Origin: a virus | Direction: 5' to 3' (one strand) | IMG/VR virus record: IMGVR_UViG_3300034272_002031 | Coordinates: 1-37,991 of that record | DNA: 37,991 nt | In this document: piece after piece, positions 9,836-34,985 of the stretch | How positions within the stretch are numbered: position 1 is the first letter of the stretch | Layout of the letters: each line of letters starts with the position of its first letter | The notes under the pieces: model-generated | Database searches by the model: none | What the model saw: the letters and a program-made list of their open reading frames with translations, nothing else | Told to the model about the DNA's origin: nothing | Position numbers and translations under genes: made by a program

Positions 9836-9897
9836 ACAAAGCCGTTGGGCGCTCAAAAAAGGCATTCCGTGCGCGTCAAGAAACGCCCCGGCCCCGA

Positions 9898-17990: not shown

Positions 17991-18040
17991 GGTGTGAATT
18001 TATTCGGCAGCTTCTGTTTGGTCTTGTGCGCGTTTGCCCG
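17991..18040 (-). promoter_or_regulatory. Late promoter copy 1 (sheath unit)
   Basis: The minus strand reads CGGGCAAACGCGCACAAGAC (18040 to 18021), 18 bp, then TAAATT, then 6 bp and the ATG. One of five copies. It lies in the C-terminal codons of the preceding gene. A start of transcription at or next to the ATG would make a leaderless mRNA. Confidence 0.72.
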
Positions 18041-18509
18041 CGAGCTTTGCGCGGCGCTCTGCGGCCTCGGCTTCAAGGCGCTCGATCTCCGCGAGTTCTG
18101 CGAGGCGCTTCTTTTCCTCGAAGGGGCTGCCCGCAAACGCGAGGAGCTGCGCCACTTCGGACCATTCGCCGGATTCAGCGGCCTGCGGGACGAGCACGGC
18201 GGCTCGTTCGAGGATCTGCTTTTGGAATGCTTCGTTGGCTTCCACTTGCTCAAGCGCGGCTTTGGCCTCGGCCTTTGCGGCGTTAAGCTCCGCGCTGAGT
18301 TTTGCGAGCGCCTCGGCGTGCTCCGCGGTGAGTTTTTCGGAGGCTGCTTTGAGGGCGTCGGCGTGCGCGGCTTTCTGCGCGTCGTCGTAGGCTACAAGCG
18401 CGTGTTGAATGTCGGATGCGAGGTGCCTGTTGTTTGCGACGGCGTCAGCCACCGCGCCCGCTTGCATTCCGTCGATGGTTAGTGAGGTTGGAGAAAAGAT
18501 TTGAATCAT
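18000..18509 (-). CDS. Coiled-coil hypothetical protein after the fibre gene (169 aa)
   Basis: Start at ATG 18507-18509, overlapping the fibre stop by ATGA. A short N-terminal part (IQIFSPTSLTIDGMQAGAVA) is followed by a long Ala/Glu/Lys coiled coil (about 40-110) and a second charged helix (about 130-169). No family is recognised. Its place after the distal fibre gene suggests a fibre-assembly chaperone or a virion accessory, but it does not resemble known Tfa proteins. The final codons carry late-promoter copy 1. Confidence 0.6.
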   Translation of the reverse strand: MIQIFSPTSLTIDGMQAGAVADAVANNRHLASDIQHALVAYDDAQKAAHADALKAASEKLTAEHAEALAKLSAELNAAKAEAKAALEQVEANEAFQKQILERAAVLVPQAAESGEWSEVAQLLAFAGSPFEEKKRLAELAEIERLEAEAAERRAKLAGKRAQDQTEAAE

Positions 18510-19603
18510 ATAAAAGTGACGGCACAAACCCGGTAGTTTTGGCCGGTAAGAGAAACCGAAGAAGGGGTCGGGTTGATCCAATACACGCGGACGACATTTC
18601 CCGAAATGACGTTAGCCTTTAGGATAATCGCGTTGACGTTCATTCCTCCGTTACATTCCACAAAGCAAACCGTGTTTGAATCCGCGCCCGTTAACGTAAC
18701 GTCCAAAAACTGAGAACCACCGTTGGCGGCAATCGCGCCCGGCTGGTGATAAAAGCCAGCGGTTACAATGCTGCCAATTGCCCCGCCGTTGCCGCCTATT
18801 TTCACGGGCGCGTTAAATTGCAGCGGCTCTAAAGTGCTGCTTCGCATGAAGCACGAAAAAATAGCCTTTAGGGTGCCGTCTGTCTTTGTCCCATATAAAA
18901 CAAAGTTATTGTCACCCTGACACGTAAATTGCGGGTTGGTTCCTGCCGTGTCGGTGAATTGCAAGTTGCCGTTGTTGTCTATTCTCAAACTACCCGCAAC
19001 ATGGAGCCGGGCTTGCGGGGAGACTGTCCCCACCCCCCAATTTCCTGCGTTAGTAATTGCGCCCGTGGTTCCGCCGTTGCACCCAAACACCATCAAGCCA
19101 GGAGAGCCCGCTGCCGTGCCGCCATAGAGCGAAATCCACGCGCCAGAGGTGGAAATGCCCGGGTCAGAGCTGCCCGCAACGATGCTCCACGCGGAGTTAT
19201 CGCCCGCTCCCTTGAGTGTTCCCTGAACGTTTTGGATTGAGCCGCCAACGGTCAGCGTGCCTGAAAGCGTGGTGTTGTTGTACGCATCCCAATTAGCCAG
19301 GATCGCGGTTACTGCCGTGTAACCGTCATTGACTCGCTCAAGGCGTACATTCCCGGCCCCGTCGTGAGCCAACCGGCTGAATTTCTTATCGACCGGCGCG
19401 GCTGTGTTTTTGAGCTGCAAAAACGGGTAGCTGTTCCCCTCGATGTTGAGTTGCTGGAGCGTTGGCGCGCTCGTCCAAGAGGGCGCGGAGCCGTTCGTTG
19501 TCAGGAGCTTCCCCGCGTTGCCGAATTGCGTCGGGAGCAACGCCGTGAAAACGTTGAGCGTCGGCGGCGGCGTGGTCTCTACAGTGACGGTGATGTCGGG
19601 CAT
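18506..19603 (-). CDS. Tail fibre / receptor-binding protein candidate (365 aa)
   Basis: Residues about 1-60 form a Pro/Thr-rich start and a GNAGKLLTTNGSAPSWTSAP motif common at the front of phage fibre shafts. The rest is rich in Gly, Asn, Ser and Thr with short strands (NWGVGTVSPQARLHVAGSLR is a known fibre-type repeat start). The C-terminus is strand-rich. The DNA is clearly more A/T-rich than the surrounding late genes, as often seen in exchanged receptor-binding genes. It ends the fibre cluster and overlaps the next ATG. Confidence 0.65.
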   Translation of the reverse strand: MPDITVTVETTPPPTLNVFTALLPTQFGNAGKLLTTNGSAPSWTSAPTLQQLNIEGNSYPFLQLKNTAAPVDKKFSRLAHDGAGNVRLERVNDGYTAVTAILANWDAYNNTTLSGTLTVGGSIQNVQGTLKGAGDNSAWSIVAGSSDPGISTSGAWISLYGGTAAGSPGLMVFGCNGGTTGAITNAGNWGVGTVSPQARLHVAGSLRIDNNGNLQFTDTAGTNPQFTCQGDNNFVLYGTKTDGTLKAIFSCFMRSSTLEPLQFNAPVKIGGNGGAIGSIVTAGFYHQPGAIAANGGSQFLDVTLTGADSNTVCFVECNGGMNVNAIILKANVISGNVVRVYWINPTPSSVSLTGQNYRVCAVTFI

Positions 19604-19606
19604 GGG

Positions 19607-19942
19607 TCAGCGTGTTACCTGTTTTGAGAGCGTGACGGACCCTTGCGCCACGCGAAGCGCGGTCCCGTCCGCGAACGTGACGAGCACGTCGTAAACCGCC
19701 GTTGAAAAGCTCAGGTTGCGCGTTTGCGCTGCGGTGAGAGAGAACTCTGCTCGGCCAGTGGACGGCCCTTTCGTCACGGTAAACTCTTGGAGGATGGCTT
19801 GGCTTTCCGCCGTCGGGCGTATCTGCGCGGCAAGGGTTGCCGTCGTAAGCGGGATGAGCCCCGCCCCGGCGTCATAAAAAACCATCGCAAACGAGAACGT
19901 CGTCCCCTGGTTGATTTCAAAGTTGTAGGTTTGGGCGGCCAT
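19607..19942 (-). CDS. Beta-sandwich virion protein between fibre genes (111 aa)
   Basis: A compact all-beta protein (FEINQGTTFSFAMVFYDAGA, LPLTTA-like strands, YDVLVTFADGTALRVAQGSV) resembling the BppU-N/Ig-like modules that join baseplate to fibres. It directly follows the collar fibre gene and precedes the distal fibre gene, so it probably links or decorates the fibre. The exact role is not provable from sequence. Confidence 0.6.
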   Translation of the reverse strand: MAAQTYNFEINQGTTFSFAMVFYDAGAGLIPLTTATLAAQIRPTAESQAILQEFTVTKGPSTGRAEFSLTAAQTRNLSFSTAVYDVLVTFADGTALRVAQGSVTLSKQVTR

Positions 19943-21292
19943 TTAGAATTTGATGAAAAACGGGAATGCGACGTTGCGCGGGCGCGTTTCGGTGCCGCCG
20001 TTGCTGGACGTTGTGTAGCCGTTGAACGAAGAGCCGCCACCGTGTGATGTCACTGCGTAGAAATTAAAAACGCCCTGCCCAGTATTGGAGGCGCTTGTAG
20101 TGAACGCGCCGACGTTGTGGTTGTGCGCCTCCAACATGTCGGCTTGTGCTGAGCCCAAGACGCGCCCGGTGTCCGCTGCGCGTCCTTCGTCAAGGCCTCG
20201 GATGAACTCGCCGCGAAGGTCGGGGACGTTAAATGTCGTTGAGCCGTTTCCGACGCCGTAGGTCGTGCCCACTTTGGCGAAGAGGGAGGCGTAGGTGGTG
20301 CGGGAGACTGCCTGCCCGTTGCATTTCAGCCAGCCTGTCGGCTCGGTCGTCTGCGGGAATGTGGTAATCATCCCCAGCAAAAGCCCGTCGATGTATTGCT
20401 TTGTCGCGGCGTGAAGCGCGGCGGTCGGGTCCGCTGGCAACGTCAGCGGGCCTGTCATTGTGTCGCCAGCCTTGTTGAGTTTGAGCGCGTCGGCTGCGTC
20501 GGTGTAGGCTTTCGTGGCCGGGTGCAAACCGCTCGACGGGCTGCCGACGAGCGTTAGATGTCCGGTCATGGTGTCGCCGGTCCTCAAGACGCCCTCTTTT
20601 CCAGCGCCGCCGCTTCCGGTGGTTAGAAGGGTGCCAATCGGCACGGCGTCAACCTGCGCAAGAAGGCCGTCGCCGGTCGAAGCCCAGCCGATGCGGACTT
20701 TGTTTGCCCCCTGGTTCGATCCGCCGCCCTGCTGCACTGGAGTAAACCCCAGCCATGTCGCGAGACGCTGCGCCAGTTTTAGCGGGGTGATGAATCTGGC
20801 GTTGTCCGTGCCCGCGTCGGTCTCGGCCTGCGTGGCGATTTCCGCGACTCCCTGCACGGTCTCGGTTGCGGGCGGGTATTGGAAAGAGGCGTTGCCGATG
20901 GTGACGCTCCCGGCGGGAACGCCTGTAATGACGAAATCCAAGGCGAAGAGCGCAACTGAGCCGCTGCCCTTGATGAGAATTGGGTCCGCCTGTGAGTAGA
21001 TGGCGAAGAGGGTTCCGGTCGAGGTAATCAAGCCCACCTCGCGGACGGTGTAACTGTCGGCGGACGAGTCGGAAGCGGTGATGTGAATCGTTCCCGGAGT
21101 CGGCACGCTGGATCCCCCAGGCGTGATTTGTTTGATAGGCGCAACCAAGGCCGTCTGCGCGCCGGTCGCGGTGTAGCCGCTGGAGCCGATGGAAACCTTT
21201 GAGATGGTGACGGGTATTGTGTTGCCGGTGGCTATGGCAGTGGCAATCGCCGATTTCCCGGCGTTAGTGATGAGGAAATTAAGCGCGGGCAT
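19943..21292 (-). CDS. Tail-collar fibre protein (P2 gpH-like N-terminus)
   Basis: The 449-residue protein starts like tail-collar fibres (LNFLITNAGKSAIATAIATG, about 1-150 attaching to the baseplate). Two shaft repeats follow (RTGDTMTGHLTLVG and KAGDTMTGPLTLPA, about 235-300), then a C-terminal collar domain (WLKCNGQAVSRTTYASLFAK ... FNVPDLRGEFIRGLD ... AHNHN). It lies directly after gpI as in P2. The collar domain suggests a trimeric fibre that carries the distal fibre protein or binds the host. Confidence 0.88.
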   Translation of the reverse strand: MPALNFLITNAGKSAIATAIATGNTIPVTISKVSIGSSGYTATGAQTALVAPIKQITPGGSSVPTPGTIHITASDSSADSYTVREVGLITSTGTLFAIYSQADPILIKGSGSVALFALDFVITGVPAGSVTIGNASFQYPPATETVQGVAEIATQAETDAGTDNARFITPLKLAQRLATWLGFTPVQQGGGSNQGANKVRIGWASTGDGLLAQVDAVPIGTLLTTGSGGAGKEGVLRTGDTMTGHLTLVGSPSSGLHPATKAYTDAADALKLNKAGDTMTGPLTLPADPTAALHAATKQYIDGLLLGMITTFPQTTEPTGWLKCNGQAVSRTTYASLFAKVGTTYGVGNGSTTFNVPDLRGEFIRGLDEGRAADTGRVLGSAQADMLEAHNHNVGAFTTSASNTGQGVFNFYAVTSHGGGSSFNGYTTSSNGGTETRPRNVAFPFFIKF

Positions 21293-21295
21293 TTT

Positions 21296-21826
21296 TTACG
21301 GGTAAGAGGCGACGCCTTCAAGCCGGTCGTAGAGTGTCGGGTTGAGAATCCCCACGATATTCCCCTCGATGAGAAATCCTTGGACAAGCTCGACGATCAT
21401 TTGCGAGCGGACGGGCTTAACGCGGTTGACGGCCTCGAAAATGGAATCCTGAACGCTGGCCGGGGTCGTGATGAAGGAGGCGAGAAGTTTAAACGTGTGC
21501 GGGGTGCCGGGCGGCGTCTGCTGCCACCACTCTTGAAAGGCGAGGCCGACGCCGAAACTTTCGAGCACGCGCCGGACTGCGCCGACGGTGCCTTTGCGCT
21601 GATGAATGCCAATTGACGCGGCGATGACGCTGCGCTTCTGAACCTCGGTCCAGTCGGCGTTCCACTCGTCCACCGAAAATCCCCACGCAAGCCAGGGCAA
21701 AAGGTTTGCCGGGCATGTTTCGGCATTCCAGAGCGTGCGCTGCGGCGCTGGCAATTCCGTGGCGCGCTGCGTTGCGGCCTCCATTGCGCGCTCTTGGTCG
21801 GAGCTGTTCGGCGGGAGGAGACTCAT
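21296..21826 (-). CDS. I: P2 gpI-like baseplate/tail protein
   Basis: This 176-residue protein shows the gpI signature LLPWLAWGFSVDEWNADW and RSVIAASIGIHQRKGTVGAV, followed by FGVGLAFQEWWQ. It joins baseplate wedge to fibre. It overlaps gpJ by ATGA and precedes the fibre gene by 3 bp, the P2 order J-I-H. Confidence 0.92.
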   Translation of the reverse strand: MSLLPPNSSDQERAMEAATQRATELPAPQRTLWNAETCPANLLPWLAWGFSVDEWNADWTEVQKRSVIAASIGIHQRKGTVGAVRRVLESFGVGLAFQEWWQQTPPGTPHTFKLLASFITTPASVQDSIFEAVNRVKPVRSQMIVELVQGFLIEGNIVGILNPTLYDRLEGVASYP

Positions 21827-22725
21827 TCAGCCACCCCCGCGTGCGTGATGTTTAGGCCTGTGCAATAAGCGGCCTGTGCGTAGTTGACGGTGATGTCGGC
21901 GGCGGGCTGTGTCAGCTCGACACGCTGCACCCCGGCGACGTGCAGCGCGGCGAAAATCCCCGAGCGCGGGATGTCGTAGCCGATGCGGTGCTGGCCGTCC
22001 GCGAATGCCTGCGCGGCGGTCTGCGCCTGCTGAATGACAACGGCGGAGTCCGGGCCTGCGTAGGTGTAGAGCGTGGCCTGTATGGTATAAGGGACGATCG
22101 TTGCGCCCTGCACGGTCACTTGATCAGTGAGCGGTCGGACATCCTCGTCGTTGAGGATGGCGGCGACCTCGGAAATGACGGTTGAGGTCACGGCCCCGCT
22201 GCCGGTGGTCCCTAGGAGGGTCACGAGCACCTGCCCGGGTGAGAGGATCGGCGGGCCGGTAACGCTCGCGTGTTTCACGGCCTCGGATTTCAAGGCGTGG
22301 TAAAGATAAGCGCCCTCGGGGCCTGCGGTGCTGAGTCCCTCTAGCGCGAGAGTGATCCTGTAACGGAGGTCGGCGTCGGCTTCCATCACAGCCTCCACGG
22401 GCGGGATCGCGGACGGGTTTCCGGCAATGAGCGTTTTTCGTGTGACGCCGAAAAGCGCGCCGAGGTGCTCCAGGTCTGCGCCGGTCGCAAATGCCAGCAT
22501 GACGGCGCGGGAGGCGTCGTTGATGCGTTGGCGCAAGAGGAGTTCGCGGTAGGCCGCAACCTCAAGAATCTTCCATGCTGGATCAGACTCAACCAAAGCC
22601 GTGAAAGCGGGATCTCGCGCTTGAAGGTCCGCAACCATCGCGGCGAGGATCGCGGAGAAGTCGAGCGTCTCCACCACGTCGGGCGCGGGGATGTTTGAAA
22701 GGTCAATCGCGGTAAAGCTGCTCAT
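21823..22725 (-). CDS. J: Baseplate wedge protein (P2 gpJ)
   Basis: From ATG 22725 (overlapping the gpW stop) the protein has 300 residues. It carries RDPAFTALVESDPAWKILEV, REL-LLRQRINDASRAVMLAF-type helices, ATGADLEHLGALFGVTRK and GAVTSTVISEVAAIL, all typical of gpJ. A longer frame from 22851 lies in gpW and is rejected. It is the main baseplate wedge component. Confidence 0.93.
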   Translation of the reverse strand: MSSFTAIDLSNIPAPDVVETLDFSAILAAMVADLQARDPAFTALVESDPAWKILEVAAYRELLLRQRINDASRAVMLAFATGADLEHLGALFGVTRKTLIAGNPSAIPPVEAVMEADADLRYRITLALEGLSTAGPEGAYLYHALKSEAVKHASVTGPPILSPGQVLVTLLGTTGSGAVTSTVISEVAAILNDEDVRPLTDQVTVQGATIVPYTIQATLYTYAGPDSAVVIQQAQTAAQAFADGQHRIGYDIPRSGIFAALHVAGVQRVELTQPAADITVNYAQAAYCTGLNITHAGVAE

Positions 22726-23057
22726 ATGACGATGCCGTCCACGGTGACGGGTTGGCCGGTCGGTAAATAAACGCCCTCGAGCTCCAATGTGACGCGCCCG
22801 TCGGAAACGGCGCTGGCAAAGACGCGAGCGATTGCAAGGCGCGGCTCCCATTTCTGGAGGGCGTCAATGGTCGCCACGTAAAGCTCGATGAGGGTCGAGC
22901 GATTCAGCGGGGCGTCCACCAGCTCGAAGAGGCGCGAGCCGTAATCGCGGAGCATGACACGCGAGCCAAGCGGACAAGACAGGATGTCCTGAATGCTCTG
23001 GCGGAGGTGCTCCACGCCGGAGAGAGCCTTGCCTGTTGTTTGATTCGTCCCGCGCAC
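22722..23057 (-). CDS. W: Baseplate protein W (gp25/lysozyme-like family)
   Basis: This 111-residue protein has LRQSIQDILSCPLGSRVMLR and DYGSRLFELVDAPLN, the GPW/gp25 signature, including the EPR motif (WEPRLAI). It nucleates wedge and sheath assembly. The start is GTG 23057. Late-promoter copy 2 ends 31 bp upstream with a TAATGT box 6 bp before the GTG, so this gene begins the baseplate-fibre unit. Confidence 0.92.
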   Translation of the reverse strand: MRGTNQTTGKALSGVEHLRQSIQDILSCPLGSRVMLRDYGSRLFELVDAPLNRSTLIELYVATIDALQKWEPRLAIARVFASAVSDGRVTLELEGVYLPTGQPVTVDGIVI

Positions 23058-23108
23058 GGTCGAACATTAGGCGCGGCCTGTTCCGGGCGTCTTGTGCGCG
23101 TTTGCTCG
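23058..23108 (-). promoter_or_regulatory. Late promoter copy 2 (baseplate unit)
   Basis: The minus strand reads CGAGCAAACGCGCACAAGAC (23108 to 23089), 19 bp, TAATGT, 6 bp, GTG start. It begins directly at the gpV stop and fills the V-W gap, so it is not constrained by coding. Confidence 0.75.
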
Positions 23109-23714
23109 CTAAGGGTTCGGGCCTGCGGTGTTTGAAACTCCCGAGGTGACGCCGCCGTGTGTGTGCGTGCTGAGGGCAATGCCGTTGCTCGTCAGCGCGC
23201 CGCCGGATTGAGAAACGGCCCCGGTGATCTGGACGCCCGAGGCGGAAACAACGAGCTGCGTCCCGCCCACGGTGAGCCGGATGGCATCGGCGGCGACTTC
23301 GAGCGTTGAGGATGCCCCCGCTTTCACCGTGGCTTTGCCCCCTGCGGGGATGCTGATTGCGTAGGCGTGCGCGGCTCGGTCGTACTCGACCACGGCCCCG
23401 TCGGCGTAGGTCGTGCGGGAGACCGTCGCGGCGTCTGCGTTGGCCGGGCGGTCCTGCTTGTAAACGCCCCCGATGACAAAACCCGCGCACAAGTCGCCAG
23501 CCGGTGAAAGAACGAGCACTTGCTCGCCCACTTCCGGCGCGTGCCACGTCTTGTCCCCGCCAGCGCGGGAGGATACCCACGGAAGCCACGCGGTTGTGTT
23601 TTTCCCGAGCTTCACCCGGACGCGAGCATTGGAATAATCCGCCTCAAGGATCGTCCCCGCCCTGGTCACGTTGGCAAGGCGGCGCTCAAGCTCTCCAATA
23701 CGTGCGGCACTCAT
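23109..23714 (-). CDS. V: Baseplate spike protein (P2 gpV)
   Basis: From ATG 23714 the protein has 201 residues: a helical start (ARIGELERRLANVTRAGTI), an OB-fold (about 25-95, WLPWVSSRAGGDKTWHAPEV, GEQVLVLSPAGDL), and a beta-helix spike ending in THTHGG, the metal-binding tip motif of gpV proteins. It punctures the host envelope. It overlaps the preceding gene by ATGA. The upstream frame extension to 24017 is a shadow. Confidence 0.93.
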   Translation of the reverse strand: MSAARIGELERRLANVTRAGTILEADYSNARVRVKLGKNTTAWLPWVSSRAGGDKTWHAPEVGEQVLVLSPAGDLCAGFVIGGVYKQDRPANADAATVSRTTYADGAVVEYDRAAHAYAISIPAGGKATVKAGASSTLEVAADAIRLTVGGTQLVVSASGVQITGAVSQSGGALTSNGIALSTHTHGGVTSGVSNTAGPNP

Positions 23715-24232
23715 TCGGGCGGGATGATGCGGCGATAGAAGGGCTCGTTCGGGACGCCGATGTAAGGGGCGATGCCGAGGAAGATTTGCGTCGGCACAAC
23801 GCTCGCGCCGTCCCAAATGGAAGCGCCTAAAAATGCCGTGTGCGACCATTCCACGCGGAAGGTCTCGTACTCCTCCGAGAACGTTTCCGGCGTGGCGCTC
23901 GCAAAACGCCCCGGGCTCAGCGGGCTGCTGAATCGGTGCCCCTGCACGAAGTTTGCGACCTGCGCGGCGAGAAGTCGAACGCCCAGTTTCCCGCCCTGTT
24001 TGTAGGTGGCAACGCATTCAGCGGAAAATCGAAGCTCGACCTCTAATTGCTCGGTGCCGGTGTCGTAGGGGTTCGCCGGGGCGATTTGCTCCAATTCAAA
24101 ACGGATCGCGGGGACGGTCAGCTTTTCGCCGGGGCGGTCGTAGTAGTCCACAGAGACGCCGGGGAACGCGGCCACAAAGGCCGTTTTCATCGCGGCGTGA
24201 AGGTTGGTCAGGTTGATTTCTGGCGTCCCCAT
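23711..24232 (-). CDS. Tail completion / tail-terminator candidate (173 aa)
   Basis: A soluble protein beginning with a helix (INLTNLHAAMKTAFVAAFPG) and strands (VDYYDRPGEKLTVPAIRFEL), then a beta-rich C-terminus. The size, order (after the gpZ-like gene, before gpV) and N-terminal pattern suit a tail terminator or tail completion protein that caps the tube. The family is not certain. It overlaps the gpZ-like gene by 25 bp and gpV by 4 bp. Confidence 0.6.
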   Translation of the reverse strand: MGTPEINLTNLHAAMKTAFVAAFPGVSVDYYDRPGEKLTVPAIRFELEQIAPANPYDTGTEQLEVELRFSAECVATYKQGGKLGVRLLAAQVANFVQGHRFSSPLSPGRFASATPETFSEEYETFRVEWSHTAFLGASIWDGASVVPTQIFLGIAPYIGVPNEPFYRRIIPPE

Positions 24233-24723
24233 TTCAAGGCCCTTTCAAATTCCGCGAGAAGGCGCGGCCCGATCTGCTCTTTGACGGCGGCCATTGCGGC
24301 CTCGCCTTCGCCGCGGATGTCGTGCCCTGCGCTTTTTTCGATGGGCAAACGCGCCTTGCCTTTGCGCTCGAAGACGTTTCCGCCGAATTTTTCGATGATG
24401 AACGCCCCGGGGCGCTTGGCAGGGCCTGCGGTCACGCCTGAGGCGGTTTGGCGTGGATTCAGGCGGTTCAGTTTGATTGGCGAAAGGCCAAGCCACACGC
24501 GGCCCTGTTTGTCACTGACGCCGACATACATTCGGCCCTTGATGACGCCGCCTTTGACTTTCACGGCGGAGGCTACCTTGCGGCGCACCTCGTTTCCGGC
24601 CCAGCGCGAGACGCGAGCAATTGCAATTTTCATCGCGTGGCGAGTGCTCTCGTCGAGAACGCGCCCGGCGAGGAGCGCGACTTTTTCGAGGTCGTCGGCT
24701 CGGACTTCGAGAAACTCACTCAT
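24208..24723 (-). CDS. Minor tail protein Z-like / tail completion protein
   Basis: From ATG 24723 the protein is 171 residues; a TTG at 24729 adds two. The pattern AIARVSRWAGNEVRRKVASA, VWLGLSPIKLNRLNPRQ, and GAFIIEKFGGNVFERKGKAR is typical of lambda gpZ-type proteins, which complete the head-proximal tail end. It overlaps the attachment protein gene by 8 bp. The mixed origin (lambda-type neck on a P2-type tail) is consistent with the lambda-like head. Confidence 0.75.
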   Translation of the reverse strand: MSEFLEVRADDLEKVALLAGRVLDESTRHAMKIAIARVSRWAGNEVRRKVASAVKVKGGVIKGRMYVGVSDKQGRVWLGLSPIKLNRLNPRQTASGVTAGPAKRPGAFIIEKFGGNVFERKGKARLPIEKSAGHDIRGEGEAAMAAVKEQIGPRLLAEFERALKWGRQKST

Positions 24724-25006
24724 GAGCAAGGGTGACGGTTGCTAGGCCGGTGCCCTCCGGCTGAATCTGGATGATGGAGAACGTCTGCCCCGCAACCTCC
24801 ACCAGAGACTCCCGAGCAACGCCCGCAAGCGCGGCCATCTGGCAAGTGATTCGCGGCTGCGTCGTGTCGAGCACGGTTTCCCCGACGGACCTGTCAAAAA
24901 AGGCGTTGTCGAAAAAGCACTGCACAAGGCGCGGTTGACCGCCCACGGTGAACGTGGCCGTCTGCGCGTCGAGCCCGGTGAAAAAAGCCGCGAGGTTTTC
25001 GGGCAT
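24716..25006 (-). CDS. Head-tail attachment protein (lambda gpFII-like)
   Basis: This 96-residue beta-barrel-type protein (TFTVGGQPRLVQCFFDNAFF, RITCQMAALAGVARESLVEV, GQTFSIIQIQPEGTGLATVT) fits the lambda gpFII attachment family, forming the head connector surface for the tail. It follows the 63-residue gene by 3 bp and precedes the gpZ-like gene, consistent with neck assembly. Confidence 0.75.
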   Translation of the reverse strand: MPENLAAFFTGLDAQTATFTVGGQPRLVQCFFDNAFFDRSVGETVLDTTQPRITCQMAALAGVARESLVEVAGQTFSIIQIQPEGTGLATVTLAHE

Positions 25007-25009
25007 GAC

Positions 25010-25201
25010 CTACTTTTTGCGGGGCTTCGGCTCCTCGGCGGGTTGCGGCTCGGGCTCAGGGGCGGGCTTCGCAATGACCGGCACTGCCACTCCTCGCCCG
25101 ACAAGCTCGCGGGCCACGGATTCGGAGACTTCGACGGATTCACCGGCTTTGACGGGTTCGCCGCCGATCAAAAGGCTTTTCAAAAGCTGAACAATTTTCA
25201 T
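25010..25201 (-). CDS. Small hypothetical phage protein (63 aa), first gene of a late unit
   Basis: The first 42 residues (VQLLKSLLIGGEPVKAGESV, then VSESVARELVGRGVAV) form a small folded unit seen near head-tail joining genes in many phages. The rest is a Pro/Glu/Lys-rich tail. A structural or assembly role at the neck is plausible. Late-promoter copy 3 lies upstream with TATCCT 6 bp before the ATG. Confidence 0.6.
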   Translation of the reverse strand: MKIVQLLKSLLIGGEPVKAGESVEVSESVARELVGRGVAVPVIAKPAPEPEPQPAEEPKPRKK

Positions 25202-25252
25202 GCGGGCAGGATAGCCGAGCCCCTCCCTCGGGGTCTTGTGCGCGTTTGCTAG
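25202..25252 (-). promoter_or_regulatory. Late promoter copy 3 (neck/tail completion unit)
   Basis: The minus strand reads CTAGCAAACGCGCACAAGAC (25252 to 25233), 19 bp, TATCCT, 6 bp, ATG. It overlaps the stop codon of the endolysin gene: the TAG of the motif is that stop. Confidence 0.75.
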
Positions 25253-26688: not shown

Positions 26689-26691
26689 CGC

Positions 26692-29097
26692 TTAGAACCC
26701 TTTCACGGTCACGTAACCGGCAGTCACTGCGCTTCCCGCCGTGCTTACGCGCGCCCGGAGGAGCTGGGCCTGCACGTTGTCCACCTTGGTTTGAACCGTG
26801 GAATTTGCGACTGCTGTGAGCGGCGTGCCGAGCGAATACCAGGTCGCGCCGTTGTCGTCGGACCCCTCAAGCTGGAGAGCCGGGGCGGTGGTCGCGGCCC
26901 CGATGTTCACAACGAGCTGCGCGTTGCGGCAGTTCTGCACATTGACGCTCTGGGTTGTGGCGTTGAGCGTGGTCAAAACAACGGCCCTGTCCACGATCTG
27001 CCGCACAGGGTCGGCCATGTCGGAGCACTGGAGCCGGTTGACTGCTCGCGTGAAACTAGGAGTCGTTCCGCCCACTGTCTGCACGTAGCGCACACGGTTC
27101 CCGGTCAGAGGGAGTTTCGGGCTGCGATAGATGCCGGTCGCGGTGATGCGCGGGAAATCATAGACCCTGAACCAGTTGGTCCCCGCGTCGTCGGATTCCT
27201 CGATGGTAACGTCTAGAGTTGGGTTTGTGCCGGTTACCGCTGTGACAGGAATGTTGACCTCGTAGGAGCAACCAAACGTGGGAGTGAAAGCCGCCGTTGT
27301 CGCGGTGGCGGTGAGAGCCAAGGAAGCAACGTCGGCGATGGTGCCGGGAATCCCGAGGTTTGCCGCCGTGACGTTTGCTAAGGACCAAGCGCCCGATTGA
27401 GCAACGCCAGGCGTGTTGTTGACTGAGACCCCCACAGAGTTGGCAATGTCGCCAGAAGGCCGCGACATCATCTCCACCCGCTCACGCTCGAAATCGAACA
27501 CGCGGAGGAACGAGATCCGCAGGTCCGTGCGCTTGATGACGCCGCCTCCGCAGTTGGTCGTGGTGAGGGTTGTAGGCACCGTGCCGCTGCCGACGTATTC
27601 AAGGACAAGGTTTGTGGTTGCGATGTCTCGCACCCTCCACGCGCCGTCGATTGCGAGGCTTGCGCCGGTGGCTGAATCGCGGACTCCGACAAGCTCGACG
27701 AAATCCCCGATGAGCACGCCGGACCACGCGGCGCTTCCCACAAGCGTCAGAATCCCGGAGGTAATGGTAGCGGACTGAGCTGCCATCGTCAGCGCCCCAA
27801 GTGCCGACATCAGATTGCCGCCTTGGACCTTAGCCACGTATCCTCCGTAAGAAGTCACAGTGGAGGCTGTGCCGACGACAATTGTAAACGTCGTTGGCGT
27901 GGGCGCTGCGACCACTGCCGTCGCCGTCACAAGGTTCGGGAAGCTCGCGGCTGCTTGATCACGCATCCCGTAAACGACCACAACGTCACCCGCAACAAGG
28001 CCGTGGTCGGACGCGGTGGTGATGGTGGCCGTGGTGGTCCCGCTCTTTACTGCGGAAACAATCTGCGCGCTCGGAACGGTGAGCGCCTTGTTGTTGGCCG
28101 CTCGGATGCGGGACTTGTAGGGCTTCGAGTTGTTGGGCACCACCTGCGAGCGGTTCACAAACGCGGTCAGCGCGGCGGTGGAGTCCACCGGAGTGGAGGC
28201 CCACTGCACGCGGTCGGCCATGAGCGCGAGGCGGAAATCGTTGGTCGGCTGGAAAGCGTAGGTTCCGGTGGAGTTGAGGGCCTGAACGCTCGCGGTCGTG
28301 AGGATCGTTGCCGAGTGGTTTCCGGCCGCGGTGCCGCTGGGCAGGGAGTCGCCTGCGTCACTGCGAATGTAGGCGCTGGCGTTGGTCGCCGTGGCGTTCT
28401 CGAAAATAAGGCTCGTCCCGTCCTTCGCGTATCCCAGCGCGGGGCGGAAATATACGAAGCCTTTCGCGCCTGCGGGGTTGGCGATGGTTTGCGACGGGAT
28501 GGTTCCGCCGGGGCCTGCCGTGGCGGTGAAGCTCGTAGGGGTCGGAATCGTGGCGACAACAAGCGCGGGATAGTTGGCGAGCGGGTTGGAGCACCCCGTG
28601 ATGCCAATCCTTTTCCCTGGGACAAGTCCGTGCTCTGTGGCCGTTACAACGGTCAGCACGGTGGTTGCCTGTGAAATGCTGGAAATCGCAATGTCCGGCT
28701 GAACCGGGAGAGAGTCGAGCGAAACAAGCTCAAGCGCGAACTCCTGCCCGAGCGTGCGCTGCGAAAGGTGCGCGCCGATCGAGACCTCAAGCGGCATCTC
28801 GAACCGGTTAAGGTTTTCGATGACGGTTTCCGTTCCAGCAAAAAGCGGGCTCTTGGAAATGGTCAGATACGAGCACGCCAGCGCGTTGCCTTCGGCCTGC
28901 ACGATGTCGCCGTTGCCGAGCACCTGCACCCAATCCGAGCCGGGTGTGTTCGGCGCGTAAACCTCGAAGCTTTCGCGGTATTTGGTGGTGATGTTCGAGG
29001 CGCTTGCGCGGAGGCTCCCGTTTGCGTCGGTTTTGAGCGTTCCGGGCGTGCCGTCCGGCCGCTCGGTAATTAAAGGGATCTGGTAATCGTTGGGCAT
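26692..29097 (-). CDS. Large virion protein candidate with HGL repeat modules (801 aa)
   Basis: An 801-residue, strand-rich protein low in charge. Two modules share the pattern TVVTATEHGLVPGKRIGITG (about 149-168) and TITTASDHGLVAGDVVVVYG (about 358-375), with a related third module (about 425-480). Such HGL modules occur in phage fibre and surface proteins. Two C-terminal segments (VTIEESDDAGTNWFRVYDF and LQLEGSDDNGATWYSLGTP) look like duplicated beta-sandwiches. It lies between capsid and lysis genes, in the capsid transcription unit, so a head fibre, decoration or adhesion protein is more likely than a tail fibre. It may bind hosts or mucus-like polysaccharide; this is inference. Confidence 0.65.
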   Translation of the reverse strand: MPNDYQIPLITERPDGTPGTLKTDANGSLRASASNITTKYRESFEVYAPNTPGSDWVQVLGNGDIVQAEGNALACSYLTISKSPLFAGTETVIENLNRFEMPLEVSIGAHLSQRTLGQEFALELVSLDSLPVQPDIAISSISQATTVLTVVTATEHGLVPGKRIGITGCSNPLANYPALVVATIPTPTSFTATAGPGGTIPSQTIANPAGAKGFVYFRPALGYAKDGTSLIFENATATNASAYIRSDAGDSLPSGTAAGNHSATILTTASVQALNSTGTYAFQPTNDFRLALMADRVQWASTPVDSTAALTAFVNRSQVVPNNSKPYKSRIRAANNKALTVPSAQIVSAVKSGTTTATITTASDHGLVAGDVVVVYGMRDQAAASFPNLVTATAVVAAPTPTTFTIVVGTASTVTSYGGYVAKVQGGNLMSALGALTMAAQSATITSGILTLVGSAAWSGVLIGDFVELVGVRDSATGASLAIDGAWRVRDIATTNLVLEYVGSGTVPTTLTTTNCGGGVIKRTDLRISFLRVFDFERERVEMMSRPSGDIANSVGVSVNNTPGVAQSGAWSLANVTAANLGIPGTIADVASLALTATATTAAFTPTFGCSYEVNIPVTAVTGTNPTLDVTIEESDDAGTNWFRVYDFPRITATGIYRSPKLPLTGNRVRYVQTVGGTTPSFTRAVNRLQCSDMADPVRQIVDRAVVLTTLNATTQSVNVQNCRNAQLVVNIGAATTAPALQLEGSDDNGATWYSLGTPLTAVANSTVQTKVDNVQAQLLRARVSTAGSAVTAGYVTVKGF

Positions 29098-29124
29098 GAT
29101 GTGTGATGCGTTGCGGGCTCATGT

Positions 29125-29153
29125 CGCCGCCCTGGGTGTGAGCCGGGGCGGCG
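29125..29153. other. Intergenic hairpin after the capsid gene
   Basis: CGCCGCCC (29125-29132) pairs with GGGCGGCG (29146-29153) over 13 nt. It sits in the 69-bp gap between capsid and the 801-residue gene. There is no T-run on the minus strand, so partial attenuation or mRNA 3'-end protection is more likely than termination; it would help make capsid in excess. Confidence 0.45.
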
Positions 29154-29166
29154 GTGAGGAACTCGC

Positions 29167-31020
29167 TTAAGCTACGTTTCCGAAGCAGAAGGACGCTGCG
29201 CGGCGAACGCCGAAGTCAACGTCTTGCATGGCCACAACTTCCACGCGCCCGGAGCGCGCACCCGAGTAGGGGTTGACGGTCAATTCAACGCCGCCCCAAA
29301 TCGCCAGCATGAAGTCGGCAAAGTTTCCGAAGAAAACGTGGCCGTTTGCGACCTGGTTGGTGATCTCGGTGCGGTAACCGTTGACGGTGCCGCCGGGTTC
29401 CCAGAGGGCCATAGAATCCGTGCTTGTGCTCAGTCGGCGCGAGGTTTTCGCGTGCCCACGGAATCCTGCGTTTGCAACGTAGGCCATTGCGGCGACATCG
29501 GCGTTATCCAAGGAAATCTCGGTTTCCATCTGTACCAGCTCGGCAAAGGTCGGCTTGGCTGCGGTGGCAAAGGTCACGGTGTTCACTCCCGCAGTGCTGC
29601 GGATGCCGACAGGCGCGGCCCCGGTGCCGTCGCCATAGAACCCGGCAAGGTCGATGGTCTGCGAAAGACCTCTCGCAAGGTCTGCGCGAACGAGCGCCTC
29701 AACGGAAAGGCTGGACTGCATCATCGTGCGGCGCGTGATTTCGGAGACGGACCCGACGGTTTTGGGGCGAAGCTGCAAGAGGCCGAAGTCGATGTCTTCT
29801 TTCGGAACGTTTGCGTCTTCCCCCACCCAATAACCCTTGGTCCCGGTGGTCTGGCGCGGAATATCGAAGTTGCCGACAAGCCCTCCCATTTCGGTTCCGA
29901 GCTGCATCAGCACGGTTCTGTTTCGCAGAAGGTCGATGAAGCTCGACGCCAGGAGCGTGGTTTGCACGGTGTTGCCAGCGGTGCCGGTGTAGCCTGCGCC
30001 GGACGCAATGGAAATAGTATTGGTTCCGCGCTGGCCCATGAGCGGCTGGAGAAGAACGTCGCTCGGGATCATCGTCCCTTTGATCTCCCGATGATTCACG
30101 CGCTCGGCTGCGGCGGTGCAAGCGTCCAGCTCGAAAGCGGCGGCGTTTTGCGCGCCACGGTCGGTTGGCTCGGTGAGTGCGCGGAGGAGGCGCACGAAAG
30201 AGAAGCTCCGGGCTTCTTTTTCGCTCAGGCCGATGGGTTTCGCACCGTCAGCCACGCGGCTGTTGCGCTTGGTGATCTCATCGAGGAAAAGCTCGCGGGC
30301 TTGGTCGATCGTGCGGCCTTCTTCGATGGCGCGCAATGCGGCGTCGTTTAGGCCGTAGTGTTTGCCAGCGGCGAGGATCGACTTCACGCGGTCCTGCTCG
30401 GCTTGGCGTCCGGCGCTGCGCTCGGCTTCAATGGAGATTCTGGGCTCGACCGGAGCCACGGCGGGCGCGGGCTGCGCGGGCGTGTTTTGGGCGGTTTGTT
30501 CGCTCATAAAATTTTGGGTTTGGAGGTTGCGGCCAATGCCGACGCTGGGGTCGGCGGGGATTGTCACGAGGCTGATCTCGTAGGGTTGCCAACTGCGGAC
30601 TTCGTAAACATCGGGGCCGCTTTCGCTTTCCTGCAAAAGCTTGACCTCGGTTATGCGGTAGCCGACGGAAACCTTTGTGAGGATGCCGTCTTGCACGTCT
30701 TGCCATGCCTCCTCGGCGTCTTCGGATTTTCCAAACCGGACCACGGCTCGGCCAAATCCATCGGCGTCGATTCTGGCGGATTCGACCACGCCCAGCACTG
30801 CGTCCGGGTCGTGGTTGAAAAGGAGGTTCGCCCGGTCGTTGAGGCGCGAGAGGTCGCAAGCTCCCGGGGCGTGTGAAAGTTTTTCCGCGACTCCGGGCCA
30901 GCGTTCCAACTCAACGTCGGAGCTGAAAGCGAGTTCCACCGTGCGCGCTGCGGCGTCCACGCTTGCAACGCTCAAGACGCGCCGCATGGGCTCCGCGAGG
31001 AATTTGTTGAGGACGGACAT
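29167..31020 (-). CDS. Fused prohead protease - scaffold - major capsid protein (HK97 fold)
   Basis: The 617-residue protein has a prohead protease domain (about 10-165) with His70 (LLFNHDPD) and Ser118 (KVSVGY), then YEISLVTIPADP. A Pro/Gln-rich and coiled-coil delta/scaffold-like part follows (about 172-260), then an HK97-type capsid domain (about 265-617; SGAGYTGTAGNTVQTTL, FGLLQLRPKTVGSVSEITRR, LRGHAKTSRRLS-like motifs). It makes and matures the capsid shell. An in-frame ATG at 30507 (MSEQTAQNTP) marks the domain border and could give a separate capsid product. Late-promoter copy 4 lies upstream. Confidence 0.9.
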   Translation of the reverse strand: MSVLNKFLAEPMRRVLSVASVDAAARTVELAFSSDVELERWPGVAEKLSHAPGACDLSRLNDRANLLFNHDPDAVLGVVESARIDADGFGRAVVRFGKSEDAEEAWQDVQDGILTKVSVGYRITEVKLLQESESGPDVYEVRSWQPYEISLVTIPADPSVGIGRNLQTQNFMSEQTAQNTPAQPAPAVAPVEPRISIEAERSAGRQAEQDRVKSILAAGKHYGLNDAALRAIEEGRTIDQARELFLDEITKRNSRVADGAKPIGLSEKEARSFSFVRLLRALTEPTDRGAQNAAAFELDACTAAAERVNHREIKGTMIPSDVLLQPLMGQRGTNTISIASGAGYTGTAGNTVQTTLLASSFIDLLRNRTVLMQLGTEMGGLVGNFDIPRQTTGTKGYWVGEDANVPKEDIDFGLLQLRPKTVGSVSEITRRTMMQSSLSVEALVRADLARGLSQTIDLAGFYGDGTGAAPVGIRSTAGVNTVTFATAAKPTFAELVQMETEISLDNADVAAMAYVANAGFRGHAKTSRRLSTSTDSMALWEPGGTVNGYRTEITNQVANGHVFFGNFADFMLAIWGGVELTVNPYSGARSGRVEVVAMQDVDFGVRRAASFCFGNVA

Positions 31021-31071
31021 TGCGGCGAATTTATGCGCCCGCGCTCGGTCGGTCTTGTGCGCGTTTGCTCG
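31021..31071 (-). promoter_or_regulatory. Late promoter copy 4 (capsid unit)
   Basis: The minus strand reads CGAGCAAACGCGCACAAGAC (31071 to 31052), 18 bp, TAAATT, 7 bp, ATG. It fills the entire gap between portal stop and capsid start, so conservation here is not due to coding. Confidence 0.78.
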
Positions 31072-32544
31072 TCACGGCTCGGGAGCGGGCGCGGGCGCGG
31101 GAGGGGCGGAGCCTGCGGGCACCAGCGGAATGATTCGGCGCTTTTGGAGCTCGCGGTTTTCGCGCTCGATCTCGTCCCACACGTCTTCTGGGTCACGGTT
31201 GGAGGTTTCGCGGATGACCTCGGAACGGCTCTTGAACCCCTGCGACACGGCGCGCTCGTTGGCGCTTTGCTCGCTTGCCGGGTCGATCCACGGCCAGCGC
31301 CTCCCGGTGAACGATACGGCCTTGTATTTTTCGAGGCGCTCGAAGCGGAGCGGCTTCCCGTTGATCGTGATGATCTGGCGAAGGAGCGCCACCTCAAGCC
31401 AGCGCTCGAACATCGGGACCACAACGCCCTTGCAAAAGGACGTTTGCAAGCCCTTCCACACTTCGCGCTCGTCCAGCGCGCCTTGCCGGATGCTGGAGAA
31501 ATTGACGCTCGTTAGGTCGTTGGCGAGGTTGTGGTAGGACACGTTGAGACCGGCCCCGAGGCTGCGGACCATCGACTTGATAAAGGGCTCGATGGTCTGC
31601 TCCGGGAATTGCGGCGTCCAGTCCACGAAGTCGCGGTTGCCGATGTCCTCAAAGACGCCCGGCTCGGCGTCCATGTTCAGCGGGTCTTCCTCCTCGGAGG
31701 CGTCCGGGTTCTTGAAGAACCCCATTTTCGCGGCTCCGATTCGGGCGTTTGTGACGGCGGCGTCCTCGAAGCCCGAGAGCATTCGCATCCGCCAGAGGGC
31801 CGTGCGCCCCGGAGGGAGGCCGCGTTTCTGCCCCACCTTTTCAGGCAAAAACCAGTGTATGACATCCTTTGCGGGGACGCGGACGTATTTGATGCCGGAG
31901 TGCGACACGTAGCCCACTTGCCGCTCGTCGTAGTCTCGGAAATAGTAGGCGAGCGGGCGGTTGTCCTCGTCCATCTCGATCCCGTGACGGATCATGGTTC
32001 CGCTCGTGGTCTTCTCGTAGTGCGTCGGGTCCAGCCTCACTGGGTCGATGAACTGAAAGGCGATTCCGTGCGCGTATTGCGGGCCGTATTTTGCCACGGC
32101 CAAGACCTCGCCGTCTGTCGCCCAGGTTGAGATGGCAAGGCGCTCGGCGTCGGAGCGCGAAAGGGTGCCGCTGGCGTCGAAGTTGCTTTTCTGGCTGAAC
32201 TGCTCAAACGCGGCTTCGATGGCGCTGCTTGCTAAAACGTCCATCGTGCCGCCCGGGTCGCGGATCTGCGCGGCGAGGGAGAAACCGGAAGGCCCGGCTA
32301 CGTTGTCGCGCACAAGCTGCGCGAATTTTCGGAAGTGGTCGTAGTCCTCGGCGGCTTTGCGACTGCGCGCCACATAAGCCGTCCACTCCTGGTAAATCTG
32401 AGCGTCTGCCGTGGTCGGGGTGACGCCCCAAGAGCTTTCCAAGCGGCCCGTCTGCGCGGCCTGGGCAATGCTGCGGATCTGAACGGAGGGCGCGGGACGT
32501 TGCGCTTTTTTGGGCGCGCTGCGGAGGAAGTCGAAGAGGCCCAT
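31072..32544 (-). CDS. Portal protein (lambda gpB family)
   Basis: The 490-residue protein fits the lambda portal family: RLESSWGVTPTTADAQIYQE at the start, an AYYFRDYDERQ / PAKDVIHWFLPEKVGQKRGL-type stretch, GLNVSYHNLANDLTSVNFSS and REVWKGLQTSFCKGVVVPMF near the end. It forms the dodecameric vertex channel for DNA. It follows the joiner gene by 3 bp. The C-terminal Pro/Ala-rich tail is short. Terminase, joiner, portal, protease-capsid is the lambda order. Confidence 0.95.
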   Translation of the reverse strand: MGLFDFLRSAPKKAQRPAPSVQIRSIAQAAQTGRLESSWGVTPTTADAQIYQEWTAYVARSRKAAEDYDHFRKFAQLVRDNVAGPSGFSLAAQIRDPGGTMDVLASSAIEAAFEQFSQKSNFDASGTLSRSDAERLAISTWATDGEVLAVAKYGPQYAHGIAFQFIDPVRLDPTHYEKTTSGTMIRHGIEMDEDNRPLAYYFRDYDERQVGYVSHSGIKYVRVPAKDVIHWFLPEKVGQKRGLPPGRTALWRMRMLSGFEDAAVTNARIGAAKMGFFKNPDASEEEDPLNMDAEPGVFEDIGNRDFVDWTPQFPEQTIEPFIKSMVRSLGAGLNVSYHNLANDLTSVNFSSIRQGALDEREVWKGLQTSFCKGVVVPMFERWLEVALLRQIITINGKPLRFERLEKYKAVSFTGRRWPWIDPASEQSANERAVSQGFKSRSEVIRETSNRDPEDVWDEIERENRELQKRRIIPLVPAGSAPPAPAPAPEP

Positions 32545-32547
32545 AGG

Positions 32548-33048
32548 TTAAACGCTGACGGCGATGCGAGGCCCGAGGCCGTTGATTCCGGCCCCCACGC
32601 GGTCCTCCCGGGCGAGTTCTCGCCGCCAGAAAGCGAGGAGGTCCTGAAGCTCCTTGATGGTGTAGCGCTCAAGCTCGCGGTTGTTGATGCGGTAGCGGCG
32701 CGCCTCAAGCGTGGCGCTGCCGGATAGCATGGCGGTGATGTTTGCCACGGCTTTTGCGGCATCGCTCCGAACGTCCGTCCCCGGGGTGATGCTCGACGCG
32801 GACGGGAGCACGCGGAGACGCTGGCGCGCCACAATGGAGGTAAGGCCCGCGAGCACTTCGCGGACTTCAAAGCGGTATTCCCCGGCGTCCCAAGCGGTTG
32901 TGTTGGCCGCGATGGAGAATGCGCCGGATGCGCCCTCGGTCGCCGCGACCGTCTGCGAGGATGGCCCGGCAAACAGGAACGTCACAACGGCCCCGGGCGC
33001 TGCGGCCTGTGTAAGTTGGAGAGTTTCGCCCGCGCTGATCGTTACCAT
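32548..33048 (-). CDS. gpW-like head-tail joining protein with an N-terminal beta domain (166 aa)
   Basis: The C-terminal about 100-166 (DAAKAVANITAMLSG, EARRYRINNRELERYTIKEL, LLAFWRRELARE) matches lambda gpW, which normally is only about 70 residues and lies at this place between terminase and portal. The first about 95 residues form an Ig-like all-beta domain (VTISAGETLQLTQAAAPGAV, VTFLFAGPSSQTVAA), an addition not found in lambda gpW. The start overlaps the terminase end by 7 bp. Confidence 0.78.
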   Translation of the reverse strand: MVTISAGETLQLTQAAAPGAVVTFLFAGPSSQTVAATEGASGAFSIAANTTAWDAGEYRFEVREVLAGLTSIVARQRLRVLPSASSITPGTDVRSDAAKAVANITAMLSGSATLEARRYRINNRELERYTIKELQDLLAFWRRELAREDRVGAGINGLGPRIAVSV

Positions 33049-34985
33049 TGAGAAATGAAAGGAATGCGCGCCCGTTTGCGGGGCGTCGTTTTCCGATCAT
33101 TTGACAATGTGGGCGGCGGATCGTCTTGTGCGCGTTTGCTCGCGTCCTCCTGGGGCTGCTGCGGGGGCGCTGGCGGCTCCGGGTTTGCGCGTGCCGCCTG
33201 TGCGCGCTGCTGCACGCGGAAGGCGATTTTGTCGAATTGCGGAGCGCGAAGGACCAAGGCGGCGAAGGCGTAGACGCGGCAGTCGAGCGCTTCGTTTCGC
33301 TGCCCGGAGGCCTTGATCCACTCGCGCCTCGGGAAGCCTTTGACAAACTTGGTCAGCATCTTCTCGGCTGTGAGCTGTTTGAAATAGTCCGTGGCTCTGC
33401 CCATCGGGAAGTGGCAGTAGCCCGGGCCGGGCGCGGTCAGTTTCAGGCGCTTCATGATGACGCTCTTGGCTTGGTCAACTCCCACGATGTAAACGTCCAC
33501 GGGGCGCTTTGTCTTGGCCCCTGCGCGGCGTCGGGACGGGTTGCCCACGATGGGAACGCCCGGCCCGCCCTTCCCCTTTACTGCAAACACGCGGGCTCCG
33601 CGGTGCCGTTTTGCGTATTGGTAAACGGCCTGCGTGTTGTGTCCGCCGGAGTCGATGCACGCGGCTTCGATGACCAGTTGCCCGCCGCTTTCGTGTCGCC
33701 ACGGCTTTCTCAAGTAGTCGGTGAGGTCGTTCCACGGGCTCCCGGCTGCGCCCTCTGGAATGTCGGGATCTCCGAAAATGACGCGATAGTCGATGGACCA
33801 ACTCTCTTCCCCGCCTGCCCACGCCACCACCTCCACCTCCAAACGGTCCGGCTGAGTGTCAACGCCAGCGGTGAGCACAAGGCCGCGCTGCGGAATGTCG
33901 GCGGCGGCGGGGAAAACCTCGCAGCGTGAAATCAGGTCGTGCTCCTGCACTGCGTCCCCGGCTTCCTCCCAAGTCTCCCCGAGGCAGGTGTTCACCCAAA
34001 CTTGAAGCGTGGAGGGGTCGTCTTTGCTGGCGAGGAAGTCGCGGACGATCTCCGCCAGGGTGCGCCACGGGGAATATGCCTCCCAAATGTGGAAGCCCGC
34101 GACCCCGGAAAAAGGGGCGGTCGCTTTCCACACGCCACGGGGAACGGCGGCGTTTTTCTGCGCGTTGCTGAATGTGAGGTTGCACTCGGGGCACTTCATC
34201 GCGGCGTCGTCCGGCTTGCCCTCCGGCCAAACGACATTCCCCCACTTCAAAACGTGTTCGGATCCGCAATGCGGGCACGGGATGAAGAAAAAGCGGCGGT
34301 CGGATCGGCTCCACTCGTTCTCGATCCTGGAGAAGCCTTTGACCGTCGGGGTTGAAACGGCCATGACGCGCCGGTTCCAAAAATTGTTCGTGCGCTTCAT
34401 CGCAAGGCGCATCGGGTCGCCCTCGGTTCCGGCGCTGGCCGGGTAGCGGTCCACCTCGTCCATCAGGAGAACGCGAATGGGGCGCGATGCCAGGGAGGCC
34501 GGGGCGTTTGCGCCCGCAAGCGTGACGTGCCCGCCCGGGAATCGCTTGTGGAGCGTGGTGTTGCCCGCATCCCGTGCGCGTGGGTCTCGGACGCGGCCCC
34601 GGAGCGTGGGCGAATCGCGCAACATCGGGGCGATGCGGTCTTTGCTGAACGTCTCCGCCATTTCAAGATTCGGCTGGAGAACGAGAATGGGCGAGGCGTC
34701 GAAGTCTACGAAATAGCCGATCGCGTTGAGGAGCATCTCGGATTTCCCCACCTGGGCCGAACTCATTACCACGGTCATTTCAAGCGCGGGATCGCAAATG
34801 GCGTCCATGATTCCGCGCTGGTACTCCGCCCGGCTCGTCCGCCACTGCCCTTGCTCGGCGGATGCCTCGCCGGAAAGGCGGCGTCGATGGTCCGCCCACT
34901 GCGAGACGGTCCACTTGGGAGGAGGGGCGAGCGTCTTCGCCACGCAAGCCGCCAGCTCCCAGACGGCCAGCGTTTGCTCTGTCAT
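33042..34985 (-). CDS. Terminase large subunit (lambda gpA family)
   Basis: The 647-residue packaging motor and nuclease has Walker A SSAQVGKS (about 75-82), Walker B VLLMDEVD (about 172-179), a CPHC...CPEC zinc site (C237, C240, C265, C268) and a nuclease domain with Asp376 in LTAGVDTQPDRLEVEVVAW. The family usually cuts cohesive ends. It overlaps the small subunit by ATGA and the joiner by 7 bp. The C-terminal 50 residues are Pro/Gln-rich. Late-promoter copy 5 lies within its last codons. Confidence 0.95.
   Translation of the reverse strand: MTEQTLAVWELAACVAKTLAPPPKWTVSQWADHRRRLSGEASAEQGQWRTSRAEYQRGIMDAICDPALEMTVVMSSAQVGKSEMLLNAIGYFVDFDASPILVLQPNLEMAETFSKDRIAPMLRDSPTLRGRVRDPRARDAGNTTLHKRFPGGHVTLAGANAPASLASRPIRVLLMDEVDRYPASAGTEGDPMRLAMKRTNNFWNRRVMAVSTPTVKGFSRIENEWSRSDRRFFFIPCPHCGSEHVLKWGNVVWPEGKPDDAAMKCPECNLTFSNAQKNAAVPRGVWKATAPFSGVAGFHIWEAYSPWRTLAEIVRDFLASKDDPSTLQVWVNTCLGETWEEAGDAVQEHDLISRCEVFPAAADIPQRGLVLTAGVDTQPDRLEVEVVAWAGGEESWSIDYRVIFGDPDIPEGAAGSPWNDLTDYLRKPWRHESGGQLVIEAACIDSGGHNTQAVYQYAKRHRGARVFAVKGKGGPGVPIVGNPSRRRAGAKTKRPVDVYIVGVDQAKSVIMKRLKLTAPGPGYCHFPMGRATDYFKQLTAEKMLTKFVKGFPRREWIKASGQRNEALDCRVYAFAALVLRAPQFDKIAFRVQQRAQAARANPEPPAPPQQPQEDASKRAQDDPPPTLSNDRKTTPRKRARIPFISQW
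33095..33142 (-). promoter_or_regulatory. Late promoter copy 5 (joiner-portal unit)
   Basis: The minus strand reads CGAGCAAACGCGCACAAGAC (33142 to 33123), 18 bp, TCAAAT. It lies in terminase coding sequence, 75 bp before the joiner start. Unlike the other copies, it would give an mRNA leader of about 45-50 nt. Confidence 0.65.

Follow-up and report, generated by a model that had tools for sequence, protein, structure and literature searches.

The late region of this phage probably carries five activator-dependent promoters, each headed by a copy of the same upstream recognition element, which would be driven by a Mor-family protein and would give leaderless transcripts at four of the five copies. 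In the window, as the whole analysed stretch of 37,991 nucleotides is called here, the invariant 17-mer GCAAACGCGCACAAGAC is present at exactly five sites, all of them on the minus strand and all within the late region. These are the same places, in the direction of transcription, at which an earlier note on this DNA had described five copies with an invariant 17-bp core. The motif search of the whole window that it had proposed yielded no further sites, and none was added when up to three mismatches to GCAAACGCGCACAAGAC were allowed. Shuffled window sequence contained 0.28 sites on average, and none of 100 shuffles reached five. The copies are the following:

33123..33142, minus strand: element copy 1, at the 3' end of the TerL gene, putatively serving joiner-portal
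31052..31071, minus strand: element copy 2, immediately 3' of the portal stop codon
25233..25252, minus strand: element copy 3 (CTAGCAAACGCGCACAAGAC), from the stop codon of the preceding gene
23089..23108, minus strand: element copy 4, immediately 3' of the stop codon of the preceding gene
18021..18040, minus strand: element copy 5 (CGGGCAAACGCGCACAAGAC), within the end of the preceding gene

The motif had been given as 20 bp long; its 17-bp core holds in all five copies, while the full 20-mer CGAGCAAACGCGCACAAGAC is exact only in those at 23089, 31052 and 33123, the remaining two differing from it by one change each (18021 reads CGGGCAAAC... and 25233 reads CTAGCAAAC...). Copies 18021 and 33123 overlap the final codons of the genes before them and are read there in one and the same frame (..KRAQD..). 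The other three are noncoding (31052, 23089 and 25233), and not just the first two as previously counted, copy 25233 starting at the TAG stop codon of the gene that ends at 25249.

Each copy is followed by a -10-like hexamer, and all those listed in the earlier note at 18-19 bp are present, either 18 nt (copies 18021, 31052 and 33123) or 19 nt (copies 23089 and 25233) past the 3' end of the element:

33099..33104, minus strand: -10-like box TCAAAT of copy 1, 18 nt past the element, atypical at position 2, where the usual A is lacking
31028..31033, minus strand: -10-like box TAAATT of copy 2
25208..25213, minus strand: -10-like box TATCCT of copy 3
23064..23069, minus strand: -10-like box TAATGT of copy 4
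17997..18002, minus strand: -10-like box TAAATT of copy 5, its TAA doubling as the stop codon of the preceding ORF

At four of the five copies a start codon then comes 6-7 nt past the box (sheath ATG at 17990, ORF63 ATG at 25201, gpW GTG at 23057 and capsid ATG at 31020), and the genes concerned, together with the joiner, are:

32548..33048, minus strand: head-tail joiner gene, start 74 nt past the element
29167..31020, minus strand: protease-capsid fusion gene, ATG 31 nt past the element, with leaderless geometry
25010..25201, minus strand: 63-aa ORF (ORF63), ATG 31 nt past the element
22722..23057, minus strand: baseplate gpW gene, GTG 31 nt past the element
16503..17990, minus strand: tail sheath gene, ATG 30 nt past the element

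In the mechanism that we propose, a phage Mor-family activator, produced from the end of the early operon, would bind the element. It would recruit the host RNA polymerase, probably carrying the housekeeping sigma factor, to an xAnnnT box that serves as a weak -10 and is located 18-19 nt downstream, no consensus -35 being present. When the xAnnnT box is taken as -12 to -7, the element would cover about -50 to -31. The joiner-portal, capsid, neck/ORF63, gpW baseplate and sheath-tail units would thus be switched on together, presumably late in infection. Transcription of capsid, ORF63, gpW and sheath would start at or within ~3 nt of the start codon, so that these four mRNAs should be leaderless or nearly so, a prediction absent from the earlier note and based on distances of 6-10 nt between -10 box and start codon. 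Shine-Dalgarno sequences are almost lacking before genes throughout the window phage (1-37991). Since it hardly uses them anywhere, their lack is no proof of leaderless mRNA and was dropped as an argument for it. Considered separately, this near-absence points to a host that rarely uses Shine-Dalgarno sequences.

Conservation of the element was explored among relatives of increasing divergence. Exact 17-mers were detected in 26 IMG/VR stretches, nearly all of them near relatives, in which the copies stand at the same genes while their flanks vary; the one exact 17-mer in L031 is isolated and likely due to chance. Stretches with capsid homologues at ~60% and at 50-52% identity exhibit diverged elements before the same genes, with the spacings kept, namely CGGAAC(G/T)CCCCGCAGAAGAC in group B and CGGAAGAAAACGCACAAGAC in group C. 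When the motif is compared with related phages, as had also been proposed, diverged elements are seen to mark the same target genes. An IMG/VR pattern search for an element, a TAA box and an ATG at the right spacings retrieved 44 stretches. The catalogue of elements comprises 138 distinct ones, in which the distance from element to start codon is 30-34 nt for capsid, 31-33 nt for gpW, 31 nt for ORF63, 30 nt for sheath in groups A and C, 52-56 nt for sheath in group B, and 71-86 nt for the joiner. For the capsid of group B this spacing is kept although long noncoding DNA lies upstream. The xAnnnT box appears at offset 18 in 71% and at offset 19 in 27%, any other offset reaching at most 16%, as percentages over 16 group-by-gene classes of distinct elements with each class equally weighted; the catalogue regex does not use the box, while some of its loci came from the IMG/VR pattern, which does. 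Two more distant records follow a similar plan. L200 displays GACAAAACCCCGCTCGA four times, before genes judged by position and ORF size to be joiner, capsid, gpW and sheath, with the start codon 31-33 nt from the element at the last three, and L077, a Pararhodobacter prophage, shows GCAAACCGCCAGAGGA or a near copy three times, preceding ORFs sized like capsid, gpW (ATG at 31) and sheath.

These spacings bear on the possibility that the promoters are real but their mRNAs are not leaderless, either because transcripts start further upstream or because translation proceeds mainly from read-through mRNA. There is indeed room for a leader at the joiner and at the group B sheath. On the contrary, at capsid, gpW, ORF63 and the sheath of groups A and C the element and the start codon remain 30-34 nt apart in groups that have diverged, and a transcript start upstream of the -10 box would require another, unseen promoter, which makes this alternative rather unlikely.

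An element of this kind is also carried by eight cultured phages (ep3, FoX1, Mica, Persinger, Mano, PPpW-3, Arya and Alexa). Six of them, namely ep3, FoX1, Mica, Mano, PPpW-3 and Arya, contain a phage-specific element of 17-19 nt in four copies each, one at the 3' end of TerL, one within the protease-capsid gene, and one each ahead of gpW and of sheath; Persinger shows three copies in the stretch examined, which stops short of the terminase, and Alexa three, without the gpW copy. The division of the late region into five units that had been described thus applies to the window group but not to the cultured phages, which mostly have four copies. An xAnnnT box lies 18-21 nt downstream of all 30 copies in the eight phages, and an in-frame gpW ATG is found 30-33 nt past the element in the seven that have a gpW copy. 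The gpW start annotated for Persinger, Mano and PPpW-3 is upstream of that ATG and of the predicted transcript start, so the annotation is probably wrong. Taken by group, Iiscvirinae/Jilinvirus, Foxunavirus, Micavirus, Manovirus and relatives (here ep3, FoX1, Mica, Mano, PPpW-3, Persinger and Arya) share with the window a homologous structural module, a Mor-like late activator gene and a phage-specific element at the TerL end, capsid gene, gpW and sheath. They differ from it in that the second copy is inside the protease-capsid gene rather than before it, in having four copies instead of five, and in an annotated sheath start that is mostly farther from the element.

The internal copy in the protease-capsid fusion gene falls at about codon 185-191 in most cultured phages (L245 8881, L246 5903, L247 5260, L249 5467, L250 5377 and L251 5260), and a -10-like box comes after it, as does an in-frame ATG that would open a product of 454-479 aa. 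Such an arrangement suggests a nested capsid gene with its own promoter, proposed here as a route to capsid protein in excess over protease. Regarding gpW, its start codon lies within a strong hairpin of the read-through RNA in ep3, PPpW-3 and Mano (z -4.8 to -6.2; L245 13183-13240, L250 9702-9760 and L249 9567-9620), the -10 box being part of the loop or next to it, and gpW may consequently be silent in the read-through mRNA of these three phages. No hairpin of this kind was found at the gpW start of the window phage.

Family searches describe the window phage as having an overall lambda/P2-type module, with a GpA-type terminase, a lambda-type portal and an S78 protease fused to an HK97-type capsid among its packaging and head genes, and with P2-type baseplate, sheath and tape measure among its tail genes. 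An integrase-like ORF and an exonuclease VIII-like gene are also present, while no tRNA genes were found in the window. Between the ParB-like and terminase genes, the region 35566-37384 contains a formyltransferase-like gene (phrog_9240) and two phrog_11143 ORFs with ABC-ATPase and acetyltransferase-like matches. The candidate for the protein that would read the element is encoded at one end of the window:

3..539, minus strand: Mor-family late activator gene, PF08765 over the cut-off, open at the contig end, proposed element binder

This gene matches PHROG_836, 'late transcriptional activator', at 9.5e-20, and is placed at the early/late junction, between the early genes and the packaging genes. 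In G003, G395 (L243) and G005 the Mor gene is just upstream of a ParB-like gene, both genes leading into the packaging genes in G003 and G005. For the predicted fold of the Mor-like protein (mean pLDDT 79.8), the best match among viral structures, at 1.3e-4, is to a Mor-like factor encoded by the Achromobacter phage Mano; the TM-scores, 0.35 and 0.47, are modest. A fold search against the PDB gave no match at E <= 0.001.

A Mor-like gene was identified, likewise at the early/late junction, in all eight cultured phages and in 10 of 13 further IMG/VR records, the remaining three being fragments of 7.7-22.5 kb. The Hapunavirus phages VP882 and phiHAP-1, whose packaging, capsid and tail genes are homologous to those of the window, differ from it in having an annotated antiterminator Q-like protein and no Mor match, and no repeated element was found at the corresponding places in either. 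In a test for repeats shared by four regions, the window and six Mor phages gave strong matches, while VP882 and phiHAP-1 gave background only. For Alexa, too, the score was at background level, owing to the missing gpW copy; the three copies that it has were seen in the repeat list. As only two Mor-less controls were tested, the correlation between Mor and element is suggestive rather than strong. Together, the fixed offset of xAnnnT, the same targets in relatives, the co-occurrence with Mor and the Mor-less phages without the element support the earlier proposal of activator-dependent late promoters.

Some group B phages complicate the assignment of the activator. The Mor-like protein ends before the helix-turn-helix in three group B records (G004, G007 and G403; L135 3779-4069, L241 and L242, with 97 aa in G004) that keep the usual element, so another DNA-binding protein may take part there, and in G003 and G399 a sigma factor with Sigma70 regions 2 and 4 (G003:C1:28218-28649 and G399:C1:13234-13668) is encoded directly upstream of the Mor-like gene. 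Both observations would fit a reader of the element other than a Mor-family protein, be it a regulator or an alternative sigma factor of the host or a sigma factor of the phage. Nonetheless, only G003 and G399 contain Sigma70_r2/r4 domains among the eight records searched, and related elements occur in the window, G002, G004, G005, G395 and G396, all without them; phage sigma-factor promoters were discarded for the window on this ground. Moreover, the element differs among phage groups that each have a Mor gene, and VP882 and phiHAP-1 have neither Mor nor element. We therefore regard a reader other than the Mor-family protein as improbable, and binding by that protein as the likely basis of the system. 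As for the repeats being packaging, recombination or RNA-processing sites, or encoding a common C-terminal peptide (..AQD/AED), repeats can have other origins and two of the five copies are coding in one frame, but three are noncoding, the spacings to -10-like box and start codons are fixed in every group, and the copies are confined to the late strand and the same genes and correlate with the activator gene, so that this explanation is very hard to sustain.

Phage P2 has several coordinated late promoters for its baseplate and tail genes, and the window system is alike in that several coordinated promoters would serve P2-like baseplate and tail genes. P2 Ogr late promoters are ruled out, however, as had been stated for the motif itself, since no TGT-N12-ACA (the Ogr site) is found near the copies, its single match in the window (plus strand, 1120) falling outside the late region, and since an Ogr/Delta gene (PF04606) is absent from all eight records searched. 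Likenesses are also found with the middle promoter Pm and Mor of phage Mu and with the Mu late promoters and C. There a Mor-family activator, its gene switched on ahead of the late genes, acts at a site just upstream of the -35 or in place of it, and a recognisable -10 is present (PMC4390567, PMC4461284). The window likewise has a Mor-family gene and -10-like boxes, and the predicted site position and order of expression would be alike. The 16-bp site of Mu Mor is centred at -43.5, replaces the -35 and is a dyad of two 5-bp arms (PMC4390567). The placement predicted for the window element is similar, and the action of Mor on it would be of the same kind. Unlike the Mu Mor site, the window element has no inverted repeat; moreover, its target genes are part of a myovirus module with a GpA-type terminase, and transcription is predicted to start at the start codon itself. 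Inverted repeats are likewise lacking in 12 of the 14 element variants, the exceptions being a palindrome in FoX1 and 4-bp arms in Mica. With no inverted repeat, binding by the Mor-family protein would need to be asymmetric or in tandem.

These results support a Mor/C-type late regulon common to the whole family, built on a new, non-palindromic element whose geometry predicts leaderless late mRNAs. A more extended reading, which we hold tentatively and as quite possible, is that of a Mor-carrying myovirus clade with four or five late promoters, in which the non-palindromic element would co-diverge with the activator, gpW (and in some groups capsid and sheath) would be leaderless, the gpW start would in several phages be buried in a hairpin and exposed only by its own promoter, and the cultured members would make a nested, protease-less capsid. 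So understood, the clade would include environmental phages as well as cultured ones whose hosts are E. coli, Pseudomonas, Xanthomonas, Burkholderia, Achromobacter and Enterobacter. In the part of the literature covered, no description of the late promoters of these phages was found in open-access papers on them, and their late gene control appears so far unmapped. Put as a rule at the level of sequence, the geometry places xAnnnT 18-21 nt after the element and the start codon 6-7 nt after xAnnnT. This rule marks several annotated gene starts as probably wrong, leads one to expect leaderless late mRNAs in a phage of E. coli, and is testable in phages of this host, among them the Jilinvirus HeidiAbel (Bas97) from the BASEL collection. 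It also predicts late-gene timing for a whole, little-studied phage family, and the natural activator-site pairs constitute a resource for how Mor-type proteins read DNA.

Beyond these groups, the outer capsid relatives (L060-L068 and others, with L077, L087 and L200 excepted) showed no CGCANAAGAC-type element, and a repeat scan of them revealed no clear alternative. Capsid profile searches of an 85k-species genome collection and of 388 genomes from the phylum of an Opitutae MAG detected outer relatives only, none of them with the window element. L087, a Nitrosomonadales prophage, displays a dyad, TTGTGACATC-N10-GATGTCACAA, upstream of its capsid gene, with a near copy at another gene adjoining a weak Mor-like ORF (sites 7744-7773 and 9893-9922), and is perhaps a dyad-type relative of the late-element system.
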